Of a stretch of 45,577 bases of DNA, positions 34,167-40,186 are shown one piece after another (the first letter of the stretch is position 1; each line of letters opens with the position of its first letter). The translations under genes and the position numbers were made by a program. Below the pieces are notes generated by a model. The model ran no database searches. It had not been told where the DNA came from and saw nothing but the letters and a program-made list of their open reading frames with translations. The DNA is from Pirellulales bacterium (GTDB taxonomy: Bacteria; Planctomycetota; Planctomycetia; Pirellulales; Lacipirellulaceae), in NCBI GenBank assembly GCA_016930815.1, contig JAFGFZ010000437.1, positions 1 through 45,577 on the forward strand. Direction: 5' to 3'.

Positions 34167-36239
34167 TCAATGGCCACCGGAAGTTTCCACCCCGTGCAGA
34201 GACTTCGCTTTGCTCAGCAGGGGCCAACCGTAGCCATACAGCGCGATGATCACAAAGCAGGCCATCGGCACGATGAATCCTCGGGACATGTCGTATCGGT
34301 CGGCAACGGTACCCATCACCTTGGGTAGCATCGCACCGCCCATAATCGCCATGACGATGAATGCCGATGCTCCCTTCGCACGCTCCCCAAGCCCAAAAAT
34401 CCCCAGCGCGAAGATTGTGGGAAACATAATGGACATGAAGAAATAGCTCAGGAAAACAGAAACGACGGATATCCAACCTAATTTGAAGAAGATCAAGAGG
34501 CAAACGATGACATTGAGCGTCCCATACAAACCGACAATTTTATGGGCGGACGTTTTTCGCAAGAGGATGGCGCCGGTGAATCGTCCTATGAGGAAGCAGA
34601 TGAATCCGAGGGTGGCCAGAAAACTTGCCGCCCTGTTGCTGAAACACAGGATACCGTCCTGGAAAGGCAGCTCGTTGGGGAAAGCATCCTCCAGGAGCAT
34701 GCGATTGAGCCGGCAACGATCATTCCCCTTCGGATTCTGCGCGAGCAGTTGTTCTGTGCTTTCCTGCAAGCGGATGCCGCTAAACCTTGCTTCATTGTAG
34801 AGGGTTGGCTTCTTCTCCTTGGTCGATCGCATGTCGCGAGTGACAATTTCGTCTAAGTCGCGGGCCAAGTGGAAGCGTAACGCGTAATCCGAGCCTGAAC
34901 CGTCATAGGCATCCATTGCTTGAACCGTCTCGCTTGATAACTGGTCGCGTACGAATGATGAGACATTGTCGGACTTCTTCTTTAATTTCGCGACCATCGA
35001 CGACAGATCCTTGATGTCCGACTTATCGACTCTCGTCCTGTATTCGATCAACGACTCCTTCGCTTTCGCCTTCCCTTTCTCTTTCCCGTTTCCCTCTCCC
35101 TGCTCCAATGTCTCCGTGCTCGCCGTGACGTTTTGATGCCACGAGGCGGGGAGGGGAGGAACTTCCCATACCATATAGTTGATTACGAAGCTGAAAATAC
35201 CCGCCTGGGCAGCCACATAAAAGAACTGCGCCAATGTGGCTCCCGAAAAATGCGGATGCGACCAGATGCTGTGATGCGACATTTTTCTTATGACCGGGAT
35301 GAGTACCACGGCGAGGATGACAGATACGACGCAGCCAACCGCGGCCAGGATCACCAGCAATGAGTTGTTTGCCGTGATCTGCAAGCCGGATGGGTGGGGA
35401 ATCCGGCTTGCGATGTCCACCAGACTCGGACCCAAATTGAAGGCATTAAGGATTAGCCAGGAGATCATTCCAAAAACGCCGACCAGAACGATCGTGTTGA
35501 ACCAGAGCAGAAAGTAGGCTGGCACGCGAGCCACTTGCCGATCCGCCATTCCCGCGACTGGACCGGTTGCATCCTTCTTGCCGATGTTGTAGTCGTCCTC
35601 CGTCTGGATATCTGGGACCGGGGCAAAGAAGAAGATGAGGGCGAGGACGAGGACCACGACACCGACACCCGCATAAGGGATCCACAACGTTTCGGCACCG
35701 GTGCTCATACCGGCCGCATCCGTGCCATAGAAGAACATGCCACCGGCGATCGGGCCCAGAATCCAGCCGATGCCATTGCAGGATTGGGCCAGATTGATCC
35801 GCGTCGCCGCGTAGCGCGGCGGCCCCAAGACGGTGGTGTAGGGATTGGCCACCGTTTCTAAAAAGGTCAGGCCGGCGGCGATCACACAGACGCCCAACAG
35901 GAATGCCCAGAACTCAGCGATATTCGTTGAGGGAATGAACCAGAAACCACCTGCCGCGACCATCAGGAGGCCAGCAATAATGCCACCTTTATAACCCAGC
36001 CGCGTCGCCAACCAACCGGCTGGCATCGCCATCAAGAAATAGCCAAGATAATGGGCGAATTGGACCCAGGCGGATTGGGCCAAGGTCAAGTCCAATTCCT
36101 CCTGGAAATGCTTGTCCATGACGTCAATCATGCCGTTGCAGAATCCCCAGAGGAGAAACAGCGAACTGACCAACGCAAACGTGAATAATACGTTCCGCCC
36201 GTCACTTAGGACGAACATGCTTTCTTTGTCTTTTTTCAT
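34167..36239 (-). CDS. FucP-like MFS transporter with long inserts
   Basis: Sugar/proton symporter of the major facilitator superfamily, L-fucose permease type. The N-half is familiar: FTFALVSSLFLLWGFCNGMIDV, a WVQFAHYLGYFLMAMPAG block and TFLETVANPYTTVLGPP, ending with TRINLAQSCNGIGWILGPI. The C-half holds FFYVAAQAGIFSFVINY, GFICFLIGRFTGAILL and MFPTIFALGIFGLGERAKGASAFIVMAI. FucP is about 440 residues; this protein is 690. Two extra hydrophobic segments (about 241-265 and 290-318) lie after the central loop, and a 175-residue hydrophilic, Lys/Glu-rich region (about 360-535) sits between TM7 and TM8, probably outside the membrane. The start is uncertain; a Met at 36218 is also possible. Confidence 0.85.
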   Translation of the reverse strand: MKKDKESMFVLSDGRNVLFTFALVSSLFLLWGFCNGMIDVMDKHFQEELDLTLAQSAWVQFAHYLGYFLMAMPAGWLATRLGYKGGIIAGLLMVAAGGFWFIPSTNIAEFWAFLLGVCVIAAGLTFLETVANPYTTVLGPPRYAATRINLAQSCNGIGWILGPIAGGMFFYGTDAAGMSTGAETLWIPYAGVGVVVLVLALIFFFAPVPDIQTEDDYNIGKKDATGPVAGMADRQVARVPAYFLLWFNTIVLVGVFGMISWLILNAFNLGPSLVDIASRIPHPSGLQITANNSLLVILAAVGCVVSVILAVVLIPVIRKMSHHSIWSHPHFSGATLAQFFYVAAQAGIFSFVINYMVWEVPPLPASWHQNVTASTETLEQGEGNGKEKGKAKAKESLIEYRTRVDKSDIKDLSSMVAKLKKKSDNVSSFVRDQLSSETVQAMDAYDGSGSDYALRFHLARDLDEIVTRDMRSTKEKKPTLYNEARFSGIRLQESTEQLLAQNPKGNDRCRLNRMLLEDAFPNELPFQDGILCFSNRAASFLATLGFICFLIGRFTGAILLRKTSAHKIVGLYGTLNVIVCLLIFFKLGWISVVSVFLSYFFMSIMFPTIFALGIFGLGERAKGASAFIVMAIMGGAMLPKVMGTVADRYDMSRGFIVPMACFVIIALYGYGWPLLSKAKSLHGVETSGGH

Positions 36240-36560: not shown

Positions 36561-36650
36561 GGCACTTTTTAACAAATACTGGACCGCGATGAAAATTTCC
36601 GTTATACGTACCATTTTGGAAACGAAGATCGAAACCGGAAGGATAAAGCT

Positions 36651-37820
36651 ATGAACAGCTCACTCAAATATCTTGATCGTGCCATGGGCCAATTGCGTCA
36701 TCTGGGACTGGTGCCCGAGGCACCGTCGAAGGAGGACCCTATCGTAGCCCTATTGAATCAAATTTCCGACCTGGATGAGGATAAGGTGGTTGCCATCGCC
36801 CGAACACTCAACCAAGCCTCCTTGTTCAATGAGGTTGTTCGAGAGCAGGTCAGTGCCATGGAGTTGGGTAGTCGTTACGAAGAGATTACCAATGCGTTTA
36901 ACAGCATTCGCAACGACGCGAAGAACATGGTCGAACAGGTCGAAGATGGCAAGATCAGCACGTGGGAACGTGTTCAGAATATCTGGATGAAGACAACCCG
37001 CGGCGATATTGCCACCCGTTTTGACAAGATCAAAGATGTTTATCTTGATGTGGCCGAGGACTCACGGGACCAGATCCAACGCGAGCACTTGATCTCGAAT
37101 GCGTATCAGGATTTCCGCGGAGCACTCAAGGAAGCCGAGGTTTTGGCATTGGATGTATTGAAGAAAGCGGAGGAGAAACTGGCCAGTGCCAAGGAAGAAC
37201 TGAGCGAAGCCATGAAAGCGGTGGATGCTCACAAGGGTGATGATCGTGCCGAGCTAGCCAAGTTGGAACTGACGCGCGACGAGGCACTCCGCAAGGTGCA
37301 GGATGAAGAGAATCGCTATCAAATTGCCAAGGATCTGGCGGACAATTTGACGGTCAGCTACAACACGTCTGAAGTCATCATGGCTCGCTTGAAACAGACC
37401 ACCAACGCCAAAGAACGCGTCTACCAGCAATCGATCAGCTTCTTCGGTACCAATGAGAGTGTCTTGACGGCTCTCTCAGCGTCGTTCACGGGGCTATTCG
37501 GACTCCACGAGAGCACGCAAACGCTCGAAGCGATGAAGGAGGGGGTCAGCCAGAGCCTGGAAGATTTAGCCGAGATTGGCGGAAAGGTCCAGGAGGAGGC
37601 AATCAAGGCCGGTTATGGGCCGACGATCCGCTTCGAAGCCGTCAAGAAGCTGGTTGATTCGGTAACCAACTATCAGGAGCGTTCCCGTGAAATCATCGAT
37701 GAGATGCGGTTGCTGAGTACCAAAAATGCGGAAGAAATTCGCACCGCGGTTGAAGAAGGCAAGCAACGGCTTGCACGATTGACTCGGGAAAGCGCGGCAC
37801 TTCCGGTGAAACATGGCTGA
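36651..37820 (+). CDS. Cytoplasmic coiled-coil protein, TelA-like features
   Basis: Soluble protein of 389 residues, rich in charged and helical segments, with no signal or membrane helix. Heptad regions lie at about 155-235 (LKKAEEKLASAKEELSEAM, ELTRDEALRKVQDEENRY) and at the C-terminus (YQERSREIIDEMRLL). Between them are VSYNTSEVIMARLKQTTNAKERVYQ and VLTALSASFTGLFGLHESTQTLEAM. The general pattern of alternating helices before the end recalls the toxic-anion-resistance (TelA/COG3853) group, but I would not claim membership. GGAAGGA upstream is a strong ribosome site. Its last eight bases overlap the following gene, and it is the first gene of a three-gene cassette. Function unknown. Confidence 0.7.
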   Translation: MNSSLKYLDRAMGQLRHLGLVPEAPSKEDPIVALLNQISDLDEDKVVAIARTLNQASLFNEVVREQVSAMELGSRYEEITNAFNSIRNDAKNMVEQVEDGKISTWERVQNIWMKTTRGDIATRFDKIKDVYLDVAEDSRDQIQREHLISNAYQDFRGALKEAEVLALDVLKKAEEKLASAKEELSEAMKAVDAHKGDDRAELAKLELTRDEALRKVQDEENRYQIAKDLADNLTVSYNTSEVIMARLKQTTNAKERVYQQSISFFGTNESVLTALSASFTGLFGLHESTQTLEAMKEGVSQSLEDLAEIGGKVQEEAIKAGYGPTIRFEAVKKLVDSVTNYQERSREIIDEMRLLSTKNAEEIRTAVEEGKQRLARLTRESAALPVKHG

Positions 37821-38733
37821 TCATTCGACTGCAGAGCAATCCTTGGGCAAGCGGCCGCTCGATGACCTGATGCTGGCCATGGACGTGGTGGATACGTTGC
37901 GGCATCGTGCATCCTTGGTGGAACGGGAGTTGAACACCGAAAAGCGGGATCAGCAACTTATCGATCGGTTGCGCGAAATCTACGCGGCTCAAGGCATCGA
38001 GGTTCCTGACGAGGTCCTGGCGGAAGGTGTTGTGGCGCTGAAAGAGGACCGCTTCCGATACACGCCACCGCAACCGAGTCTATCGGTGACGTTGGCTAAA
38101 ATCTACGTCAACCGGAACCGATGGCTGTTGCCGATGGTAATCCTGCTCGGCTTGATCGGAGCCGCATGGTTGGGGTATTGGCTCTTCGTTGTTGCTCCCA
38201 GGGCTCGGGTGCTGAGAGAACTCCCCCAGCAAATCGCCGCTCAGCAACAGGCCATTGTCGATCAGGCCCGCGTCCCTGATGCGAAGGAGGACGCCCGGCA
38301 AATCGCCGCCACCGCTCAACGAGCACTCACCGAAGGTGATGTCAAGACCGCCCAACATGAATTAGATAAACTCAAGGAGCTTCACAGCCGTTTGGCACAG
38401 GAATACGAACTGCGGATCGTCGCGGAAGGTAGCACGGGCGTCTGGCGTATCCCCGATGTGAACCAGGCGGCTCGGAATTATTATATCATCGTGCAACCGA
38501 TCACTGACAAAGGGCAGGTCTTGACGTTACCGATCACCAGCGAGGAGGACGGTCAGACCAGACTTGTGTCCAAGTGGGGATTGCGCGTCGACGAAGAGAC
38601 GTTCCAACAAATTGCCGAAGATAAGAAGGATGATGGGATCATCCAACGAAACCGGTTTGGCGTCAAGCGAGTAGGGTATTTGGAACCAGAGTATTTAATC
38701 TTGACAACTGGTGATGCGATCACTTCGTGGTAG
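37813..38733 (+). CDS. Single-pass membrane protein, DUF6384-like
   Basis: Membrane protein of 306 residues. The N-terminal part begins RPLDDLMLAMDVVDTLRHRASLVERELN, with a DQQLIDRLREIYAAQGIEVPDEVLAEG block; I remember this as the start of the DUF6384 family. One membrane helix (NRWLLPMVILLGLIGAAWLGYWLFVV, about 103-128) is followed by a long Gln/Ala-rich coiled coil (QQQAIVDQARVPDAKED; TAQHELDKLKELHSRLAQEYELRI, 140-200), then a compact C-terminal domain (VWRIPDVNQAARNYYIIVQ, KWGLRVDEETFQQIAED). The start overlaps the first gene of the cassette by 8 bases. Function unknown; a role as membrane anchor of the two coiled-coil partners is an inference from the operon. Confidence 0.75.
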   Translation: MADHSTAEQSLGKRPLDDLMLAMDVVDTLRHRASLVERELNTEKRDQQLIDRLREIYAAQGIEVPDEVLAEGVVALKEDRFRYTPPQPSLSVTLAKIYVNRNRWLLPMVILLGLIGAAWLGYWLFVVAPRARVLRELPQQIAAQQQAIVDQARVPDAKEDARQIAATAQRALTEGDVKTAQHELDKLKELHSRLAQEYELRIVAEGSTGVWRIPDVNQAARNYYIIVQPITDKGQVLTLPITSEEDGQTRLVSKWGLRVDEETFQQIAEDKKDDGIIQRNRFGVKRVGYLEPEYLILTTGDAITSW

Positions 38734-38743
38734 GAACGACTCA

Positions 38744-40186
38744 ATGGCCAGCGGACTCGATACAATGGCGTCGATTGACCAGGCACTGCACCAGGTCCGC
38801 CGTGATATTCAGGACCTGGATCGTCAGATCCGGGCTGCCAGCGACAAGATCATCCATATGAACCAGGACCAGACGAATTGCCTTCGCGAGCTTGCCGAAC
38901 TGCGGCTGGACCAGTTGACGAGCGGCCCGCTTTTCATGGATCTGGACGATGCGGATCAACGTGTCACCGAGCTGCTTCGCGACCGCGCCAAGAGTCTGCA
39001 GGCCCTGCAAGAGCAAATCGAAGAATCGGACCGTCGCCAGTCGACGCTGGAAGCGGACCGCGCGACGCAACAGCAGAAAGTCCATGCGGCCTCGGCATCG
39101 CTCGATCGGGGGGAAGCTGGGACACAGCAACGGCTGGCGCGGGAGCCTGGCTATCAGGAACAGCTCAAACGCGCCCAGAATTCCGATCGTGTGGCCAAAC
39201 ACGCCGAGCAGAAGGCCCAGCAGGCACACAAGGATCGGTTGAACAAGGGCCAAGAATTTGAAGCGGATTCGCTCTTTGTGTATCTGTGGAAACGAGGCTT
39301 TGGTACTTCGAAGTATTCCGCGAATCCGCTGATGCGGACATTGGATGGCTGGGTTGCCAAACTGTGCCGATACCATGATGCTCGCCCCAACTATACGATG
39401 TTGCTGGAAATTCCGAAGCGGCTTGGCGAACACGCCGAGGATTTGCGAAAGGAAGCCGATCGCGAATTTGAAGCACTCCGCGAGCTGGAAGAGCAAGCGT
39501 CGGCGGCGGATGGAATACCTGGTCTGCGCGAAAACCTCCAACAAGAGGAACAACGGGCCCAAGATATCGACGACGCGATTCAGAAAGAGGAAATGCATTA
39601 CAGTGAATTGGTCAAGCTGAGATCGGAATTCGCTGGAGGCGAAGATGCGTACTCGCGTCAATGCCTTGAAATATTGCTCAATCAACTGCGTCGCGAACCA
39701 CTGGCGCAACTCCGACGCGAAGCCGAGCAGACCAGTTTCCCGGAAGATAATATCGTGGTTGGGCGGCTTGCTGATTTGGATCAAGCCAAACTGCGTCTTG
39801 AATCGCAGCTAGCGGAACACAAGCAACTGCATTTACGGTACCTGGACCGGCTGGAAGAGCTCGAAAAGATCCGCTGGAACTTCAAACAAAAACGCTTCGA
39901 TGATATCCATAGCGCCTTTCCCGATGGATCTCCGATTGGCGGGATGCTCAACGAGTTCCTGAAGGGGATGGTCAGCTCGGGACAGCTCTGGGGAATCATC
40001 GAACAGCTCCATCGGCGACTCCGTATTGAAGCCGATCCGAATTTTGGCAGCGGCAGCCTTGGCCGTTCCTCCGGCAGCACCTGGCGACTGCCTGCACCCG
40101 CGCCTCATCAATCTCAGAGCTACTCCATGGGAGGTGGTGGGGACATGGGAGGTGGCGGGGGTTTCCGAACCGGTGGTGGCTTCTGA
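38744..40186 (+). CDS. Large coiled-coil protein with Gly-rich C-terminal tail
   Basis: Cytoplasmic protein of about 480 residues dominated by coiled coil: QVRRDIQDLDRQIRAASDKI, LEADRATQQQKVHAASASLD, DRVAKHAEQKAQQAHKDRL and EELEKIRWNFKQKRFDDI. A central non-coil module near 165-230 (FVYLWKRGFGTSKYSANPL, WVAKLCRYHDARPNYTML) is likely folded, and a second part after 400 (GSPIGGMLNEFLKGMVSSG) precedes a Ser/Gly-rich tail ending GGGGDMGGGGGFRTGGGF. This tail is like that of other envelope proteins ending in Gly-Phe repeats. It is the last gene of the cassette. AGGA sits 8 bases before the ATG and overlaps the previous stop (TAGGA). Family unknown; no homologue name is recalled. Confidence 0.72.
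   Translation: MASGLDTMASIDQALHQVRRDIQDLDRQIRAASDKIIHMNQDQTNCLRELAELRLDQLTSGPLFMDLDDADQRVTELLRDRAKSLQALQEQIEESDRRQSTLEADRATQQQKVHAASASLDRGEAGTQQRLAREPGYQEQLKRAQNSDRVAKHAEQKAQQAHKDRLNKGQEFEADSLFVYLWKRGFGTSKYSANPLMRTLDGWVAKLCRYHDARPNYTMLLEIPKRLGEHAEDLRKEADREFEALRELEEQASAADGIPGLRENLQQEEQRAQDIDDAIQKEEMHYSELVKLRSEFAGGEDAYSRQCLEILLNQLRREPLAQLRREAEQTSFPEDNIVVGRLADLDQAKLRLESQLAEHKQLHLRYLDRLEELEKIRWNFKQKRFDDIHSAFPDGSPIGGMLNEFLKGMVSSGQLWGIIEQLHRRLRIEADPNFGSGSLGRSSGSTWRLPAPAPHQSQSYSMGGGGDMGGGGGFRTGGGF

Follow-up and report, generated by a model that had tools for sequence, protein, structure and literature searches.

The described systems closest to the locus studied here combine helical proteins with a membrane partner. 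The tellurite/colicin-type resistance operon klaABC (KilA-TelA-TelB) comprises three plasmid-borne genes, two of them for soluble helical proteins and the third for a membrane protein, and the Psp system joins a helical protein to a membrane partner and includes no enzyme. A further point of reference is the DUF6384 family (PF19911), which has no stated function. Here we describe three genes, g1, g2 and g3, the middle one encoding a DUF6384 protein, in a stretch of 45,577 nucleotides from a Pirellulales bacterium of the phylum Planctomycetota (contig JAFGFZ010000437.1; this whole stretch is hereafter the window). No system that we tested, nor any other known to us, has the layout of this trio. 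None of its parts falls into a functionally characterized family in the libraries searched, and to that extent the trio is a new system. A preliminary description of the DNA had suggested that it may be poorly described, and the literature that we searched indeed does not mention DUF6384 or PF19911. The genes are arranged as follows:

36651 to 37820, plus strand: g1, a soluble, all-helical protein of 389 amino acids, no family
37813 to 38733, plus strand: g2, a DUF6384 single-pass membrane protein of 306 amino acids
38744 to 40186, plus strand: g3, a coiled-coil protein of 480 amino acids, no family

g1 overlaps g2 by 8 bases, and each gene has one match in the window's genome. These reading frames and coordinates, the overlap, and the Shine-Dalgarno sequence of g3 on the stop codon of g2 all reproduce the preliminary description, as does the lack of an enzyme: family searches found no enzyme domain in any product. 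We propose, at somewhat better than even confidence, that g1, g2 and g3 build a single assembly tethered to the membrane, which genomes acquire and lose as a whole.

Are the three genes inherited together? Profile searches placed both g1 and g3 in 11 of 392 Planctomycetota genomes, and the two sets of 11 were identical. Within its own sample of 294 genomes, DUF6384 scored above its cut-off in the same 8, and the other three of the 11 also carry g2. If kinship is ignored, two such sets would coincide with a nominal probability of 1.4e-21; the true figure is larger owing to kinship, yet the 11 genomes span nine genera and six families. Four of them (G274, G105, G087 and G365) have all three genes without keeping them together: some or all of the genes are on separate contigs, or hundreds to thousands of kilobases from one another. 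In G105, for example, the positions are 1.91 Mb for g1, 2.02 Mb for g2 and 4.54 Mb for g3. Because the trio is complete where its genes are unlinked, neighborhood inertia cannot explain the association. The earlier suggestion that the three act together is strongly supported by this perfect co-occurrence of unlinked genes and by the conserved linkage described below; a separate occurrence of the genes in the majority of genomes would have spoken against it, but we did not observe this, and the few genomes with dispersed genes hold all three. We conclude that the three genes very probably work together.

A scan of the genome collection with g2 yielded 33 loci, in the planctomycete Thalassoglobus, in purple-sulfur and other gammaproteobacteria and in many alphaproteobacteria. 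The order g1-g2-g3 was kept in every one of these loci not cut by a contig end, so that the trio stays together across three bacterial groups. The spacing between g1 and g2 was -8 in 12 of 28 loci and between -8 and +33 in all but two. Flanking genes varied from locus to locus, and since they are not conserved, the unit consists of exactly three genes. No conserved fourth gene emerged; two kinds of neighbor, both osmotic/acid stress genes, recurred just twice each and possibly by chance. Upstream, the recurring neighbor encodes a BON-LysM protein (L017, 3085-3609; L016, 36-728), and downstream an HdeD-like DUF308 protein (L015, 9462-10340; L025, 5243-6061).

We also found the trio on mobile elements. 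It is carried by Pseudomonas megaplasmids, including the conjugative one of P. aeruginosa PA83, and by plasmids of Bradyrhizobium, Methylorubrum and Rhizobium, with rhizobial megaplasmids among the carriers. In the jumbo Yersinia phage phiR1-37, the genes g190, g191 and g192 are direct homologues of the trio and follow its gene order: g190 matches g1 at 41% identity, g191 is a DUF6384 protein (E 7e-26), and g192 corresponds to g3 by profile comparison (probability 91%) and by a common tail ending in GGGGGFSSSDSF. The phage copies have diverged from the window trio, g3 being recognizable only by the profile comparison and the tail. The search for further phage copies returned just phiR1-37, a g2 and g3 pair in the Dolichospermum phage Dfl-JY45, and four contigs of IMG/VR whose DNA may instead come from a plasmid or a host. 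A tree of g1 joins the window to Thalassoglobus at full support and places them near gammaproteobacteria at low support; the planctomycete G290 pairs with an alphaproteobacterium (0.91), and the Pseudomonas plasmids and the phage are joined by a second planctomycete lineage (0.99). These groupings imply transfer between phyla. The GC content of the trio equals that of the window in a compositional test for recent transfer, and the candidate for a clean empty site in a Thalassoglobus relative lacking the trio was ruled out, as the region is not syntenic. On the megaplasmid of Pseudomonas sp. Leaf58, the trio is preceded, at a distance of about 2.4 kb, by a StiP/PELOTA gene of the tellurium-associated cluster (L070, 4477-5547).

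The central protein of the proposed assembly is g2, in which the following elements were recognized:

37858 to 37905, plus strand: motif LDDLMLAMDVVDTLRH of the N-domain (residues 16-31), at which g1 is predicted to dock
38125 to 38202, plus strand: transmembrane helix, about residues 105-130, a single hydrophobic peak with the N-side more positive
38404 to 38730, plus strand: beta domain at the C-terminus (residues 198-306), which is predicted to lie outside the cytoplasm and ends at an invariant Trp

The preliminary description had called g2 DUF6384-like, and it proved to be a full-length DUF6384 protein (E 3.7e-116; 388 bits versus a cut-off of 25; profile positions 5-308 of 308). In its structural model, the N-domain is helical and is followed by a single transmembrane helix, a helical hairpin and a beta domain modeled with confidence (pLDDT mostly above 90). 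The mean number of Lys plus Arg residues is 3.6 before the helix and 2.3 after it, and that of Asp plus Glu is 0.24 before and 2.1 after; on the basis of these flanking charges, the predicted topology is N-in/C-out. The membrane association suggested earlier is thus supported for g2, with its one helix and N-in charges, and is only inferred for g1 and g3. The beta domain had no fold match in the PDB. The sole strong match of the g2 model in BFVD was a 440-amino-acid entry (E 1.3e-14), probably phage phiR1-37 g191, which has the same length. A GroES-like identity of g2 was dropped, the sequence match being weak (E 0.42), and the GspM (type II secretion) equivalog of NCBIfam matched at 15 bits versus a cut-off of 60, through the helix and coiled coil only.

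g1 is the most conserved of the three proteins, with 61-80% identity to the window copy across phyla and about 100 invariant columns; g2 and g3 are less conserved. One part of it is densely invariant:

37440 to 37625, plus strand: residues 264-325 of g1, with low AlphaFold2 confidence over 277-326

The AlphaFold2 model of g1 consists of long helices with a mean pLDDT of 75 and is weakest at 277-326, which is among the most conserved stretches of the protein despite this lowest confidence and may be a partner-binding stretch. g1 has no signal peptide and no membrane helix. Some homologues (in L066, L067, L068 and other records, and in RefSeq) are named "cell surface protein" or "merozoite surface protein 3b", names that were evidently transferred from coiled-coil look-alikes and are misleading. 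Apart from coiled-coil noise, neither g1 nor g3 matched a family in Pfam, NCBIfam, PHROGs or PADLOC, and solved structures searched by sequence and by fold returned long-helix look-alikes only. The profile and Foldseek searches proposed in the preliminary description assigned g2 to DUF6384 and gave no function from family or structure. Comparison of homologues revealed two conserved regions in g3, which has no visible export signal:

39245 to 39439, plus strand: conserved core DxLFxYLWxRxFGTxxY ... EIPxRLxxHA, from homologue comparison
40052 to 40183, plus strand: Gly-rich tail ending GGGFRTGGGF, a C-end motif across homologues

The Gly-rich, Phe-ended tail noted earlier is present and is conserved across phyla. 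The C-ends carry motifs of the F-x-T-G-G-x-F or F-S-x-S-D-x-F type, often in two copies; the strict motif occurs in 34 of 43 sequences, with near-variants in most of the others, and in 0.2% of shuffled tails.

Which part of g2 goes with which partner? In four genomes of the second planctomycete lineage (G274, G105, G087 and G315), g2 consists only of the N-domain and the helix, and g3 is without the Gly-rich FxTGGxF tail. Loss of g3 itself from these reduced forms was ruled out, as it is found elsewhere in each genome. In their relative G365, the beta domain of g2 is kept and so is the tail of g3, which ends GGRYRTGRTL. The reverse is seen in phage Dfl-JY45, where g2 and g3 are present and g1 is absent from the genome: its g2 has the beta domain and is without the N-motif. 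The joint loss of these modules suggests that the N-domain of g2 works for g1 and that its beta domain forms one branch with the tail of g3. In Dfl-JY45, a DUF3584 gene (MukB/Wadjet JetC-like SMC) follows the g2-g3 pair (L105, 7583-10303), a single case.

Taken as one assembly, the trio may be pictured as follows. g2 would be the anchor: its N-domain would lie in the cytosol, and beyond the one transmembrane helix, a helical hairpin and the beta domain would lie outside the cytoplasm. Through the N-domain, g2 would recruit the highly conserved helical g1 to the inner membrane; whether g1 docks there we consider an even call. g3 would be a coiled-coil subunit whose FxTGGxF tail acts in the same functional branch as the outer beta domain of g2. 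The module would coat, brace or sense the envelope physically, which appears the most likely mode of action because it contains no enzyme. As a trait, it would be optional and of benefit to hosts, to megaplasmids and to one jumbo phage at least. That the three proteins form one physical membrane complex, as the preliminary description had inferred, is likely. More tentatively, the trio may be a new enzyme-free, envelope-spanning machine of three obligate partners that moves as a unit among phyla, conjugative megaplasmids and jumbo phages. In such a machine, g2 would be a two-ended adaptor, one end for a near-invariant cytosolic helical polymer of g1 and the other forming, with the g3 tail, a second, separately lost branch. 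A role in envelope protection is our first guess, ahead of defence or superinfection exclusion, but we consider it less likely than not.

Our data show co-inheritance, co-localization, horizontal spread and correlated loss of modules, and the layout of g2 is predicted; physical contact, which domain touches which, and the role at the envelope we infer. Several points weigh against this picture. The pairwise distances among the three proteins correlate at 0.90-0.93, which favors the assembly, but such mirror-tree correlations also arise from shared ancestry. The coupling of modules rests on few independent events, as all the reduced forms belong to a single clade and Dfl-JY45 stands by itself. 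The g3 of G315 ends TFTRKKGF, which is faintly tail-like and softens a strict coupling between tail and C-terminal domain. With the beta domain outside and g3 carrying no export signal, the link between tail and beta domain is not easily one of direct contact. Finally, no result identified a stress signal or phenotype.

Could the trio instead be an anti-phage or superinfection-exclusion module, a mobile, rare and self-contained unit that blocks competitors at the membrane? Its rarity (11/392 Planctomycetota and 2/289 alphaproteobacteria), its carriage on plasmids and phages and the cross-phylum tree fit such a role. So does the phiR1-37 record, in which a "phage structural protein" note stands on g178 and none on g190-g192, as would suit genes acting in the infected cell. 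However, in PADLOC, which covers known anti-phage defence, nothing matched beyond a weak coiled-coil similarity between g3 and JetC (E 0.003), there is no recognizable effector or sensor, neighboring genes are mostly housekeeping rather than defence genes, and the conservation of g1 is unusually high for a defence protein. We regard this explanation as unlikely. Ordinary conserved hypothetical genes sharing a neighborhood by vertical descent would account for the flanks common to close relatives, such as Thalassoglobus species, but the patchy distribution, cross-phylum groupings and unrelated flanks argue otherwise, and the co-occurrence of unlinked genes contradicts this explanation, which is hardly credible.

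The remaining alternatives start from known helical proteins. Membrane repair of the PspA/ESCRT-III type would suit helical, membrane-linked, enzyme-free proteins, and g1 has weak Foldseek similarity to F-BAR proteins. Against PspA/IM30 (PF04012), however, hhalign gave probabilities of 0.2% for g1 and 1.2% for g3, a mild test in that the PspA set held two mis-picked reading frames. The PspA family has no match in the window's genome, and upstream of g1 in 40 loci we found no sigma-54 promoter within 300 bp and just three weak, scattered matches to general-stress (EcfG) promoters. Repair of this type is decidedly unlikely. A resistance operon working like klaABC would have the same make-up as the trio, and the PA83 plasmid holds both the trio and a kla-like operon (W01, 164209-166004) encoding a KilA-like protein, TelA and a membrane protein. 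Yet g1 and TelA (PF05816) compare at an hhalign probability of 0.4%, within the range of reversed decoys, whereas TelA subgroups match one another at 97-99.9%; TelA is not among the Pfam matches of g1 and was not found in 59 planctomycetes. This reading is quite improbable. Profile comparisons that included positive controls and decoys were negative, and we rejected TelA or PspA homology of g1 and g3. The TelA-like features and the PspA/TelA analogy of the preliminary description find no support in profile similarity, and no stress-type promoter was found. A three-part helical pore akin to tripartite alpha-pore-forming toxins would match three adjacent genes without signal peptides, and Foldseek aligned g1 with AhlB, SmhB and ClyA (E 0.006-0.1). 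But TM-scores were below 0.5 and chemoreceptors matched equally well, the mark of a long-helix artefact; g1 lacks the hydrophobic head of a ClyA-like bundle (peak 19-residue hydropathy 0.87), and g2 is an anchored bitopic protein. Such a pore is very improbable.

Two ribosome sites and the upstream region complete the locus:

36637 to 36643, plus strand: Shine-Dalgarno sequence GGAAGGA of g1, a good ribosome site
38732 to 38735, plus strand: AGGA of g3, overlapping the TAG stop of g2 (38731-38733), with the g3 ATG at 38744

A gap of 411 bp separates g1 from a minus-strand MFS gene. The isolated divergent promoter with inverted repeats that the preliminary description placed here was not confirmed, as its signals do not rise above chance: the region scanned holds 2 sigma-70-like sites versus 2.4 expected, and its single 9-bp inverted repeat is equalled in 12% of shuffles. 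The MFS gene (34167-36239, minus strand) encodes a sugar-permease-like protein of 690 amino acids with a charged, hydrophilic insertion of about 180 residues between its halves.

Perfect co-inheritance that survives the scattering of genes comes close to the strongest case that genome comparison can make for an unknown machine. Since the trio also occurs in hosts that can be cultured, among them Methylorubrum extorquens AM1 with a copy on its megaplasmid, it is open to study in laboratory strains, and the split between the two ends of g2 makes simple deletions possible. Our results also correct the misleading names of g1 homologues and give DUF6384 a meaning. Compared with klaABC, which it resembles in make-up, the trio differs in that neither g1 nor g3 has detectable TelA homology. 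It likewise resembles the Psp system in general composition and differs from it in profile, in promoter and in the architecture of g2. DUF6384 here becomes the central member of three genes inherited together, and its N-domain and helix are separable from the C-terminal domain.

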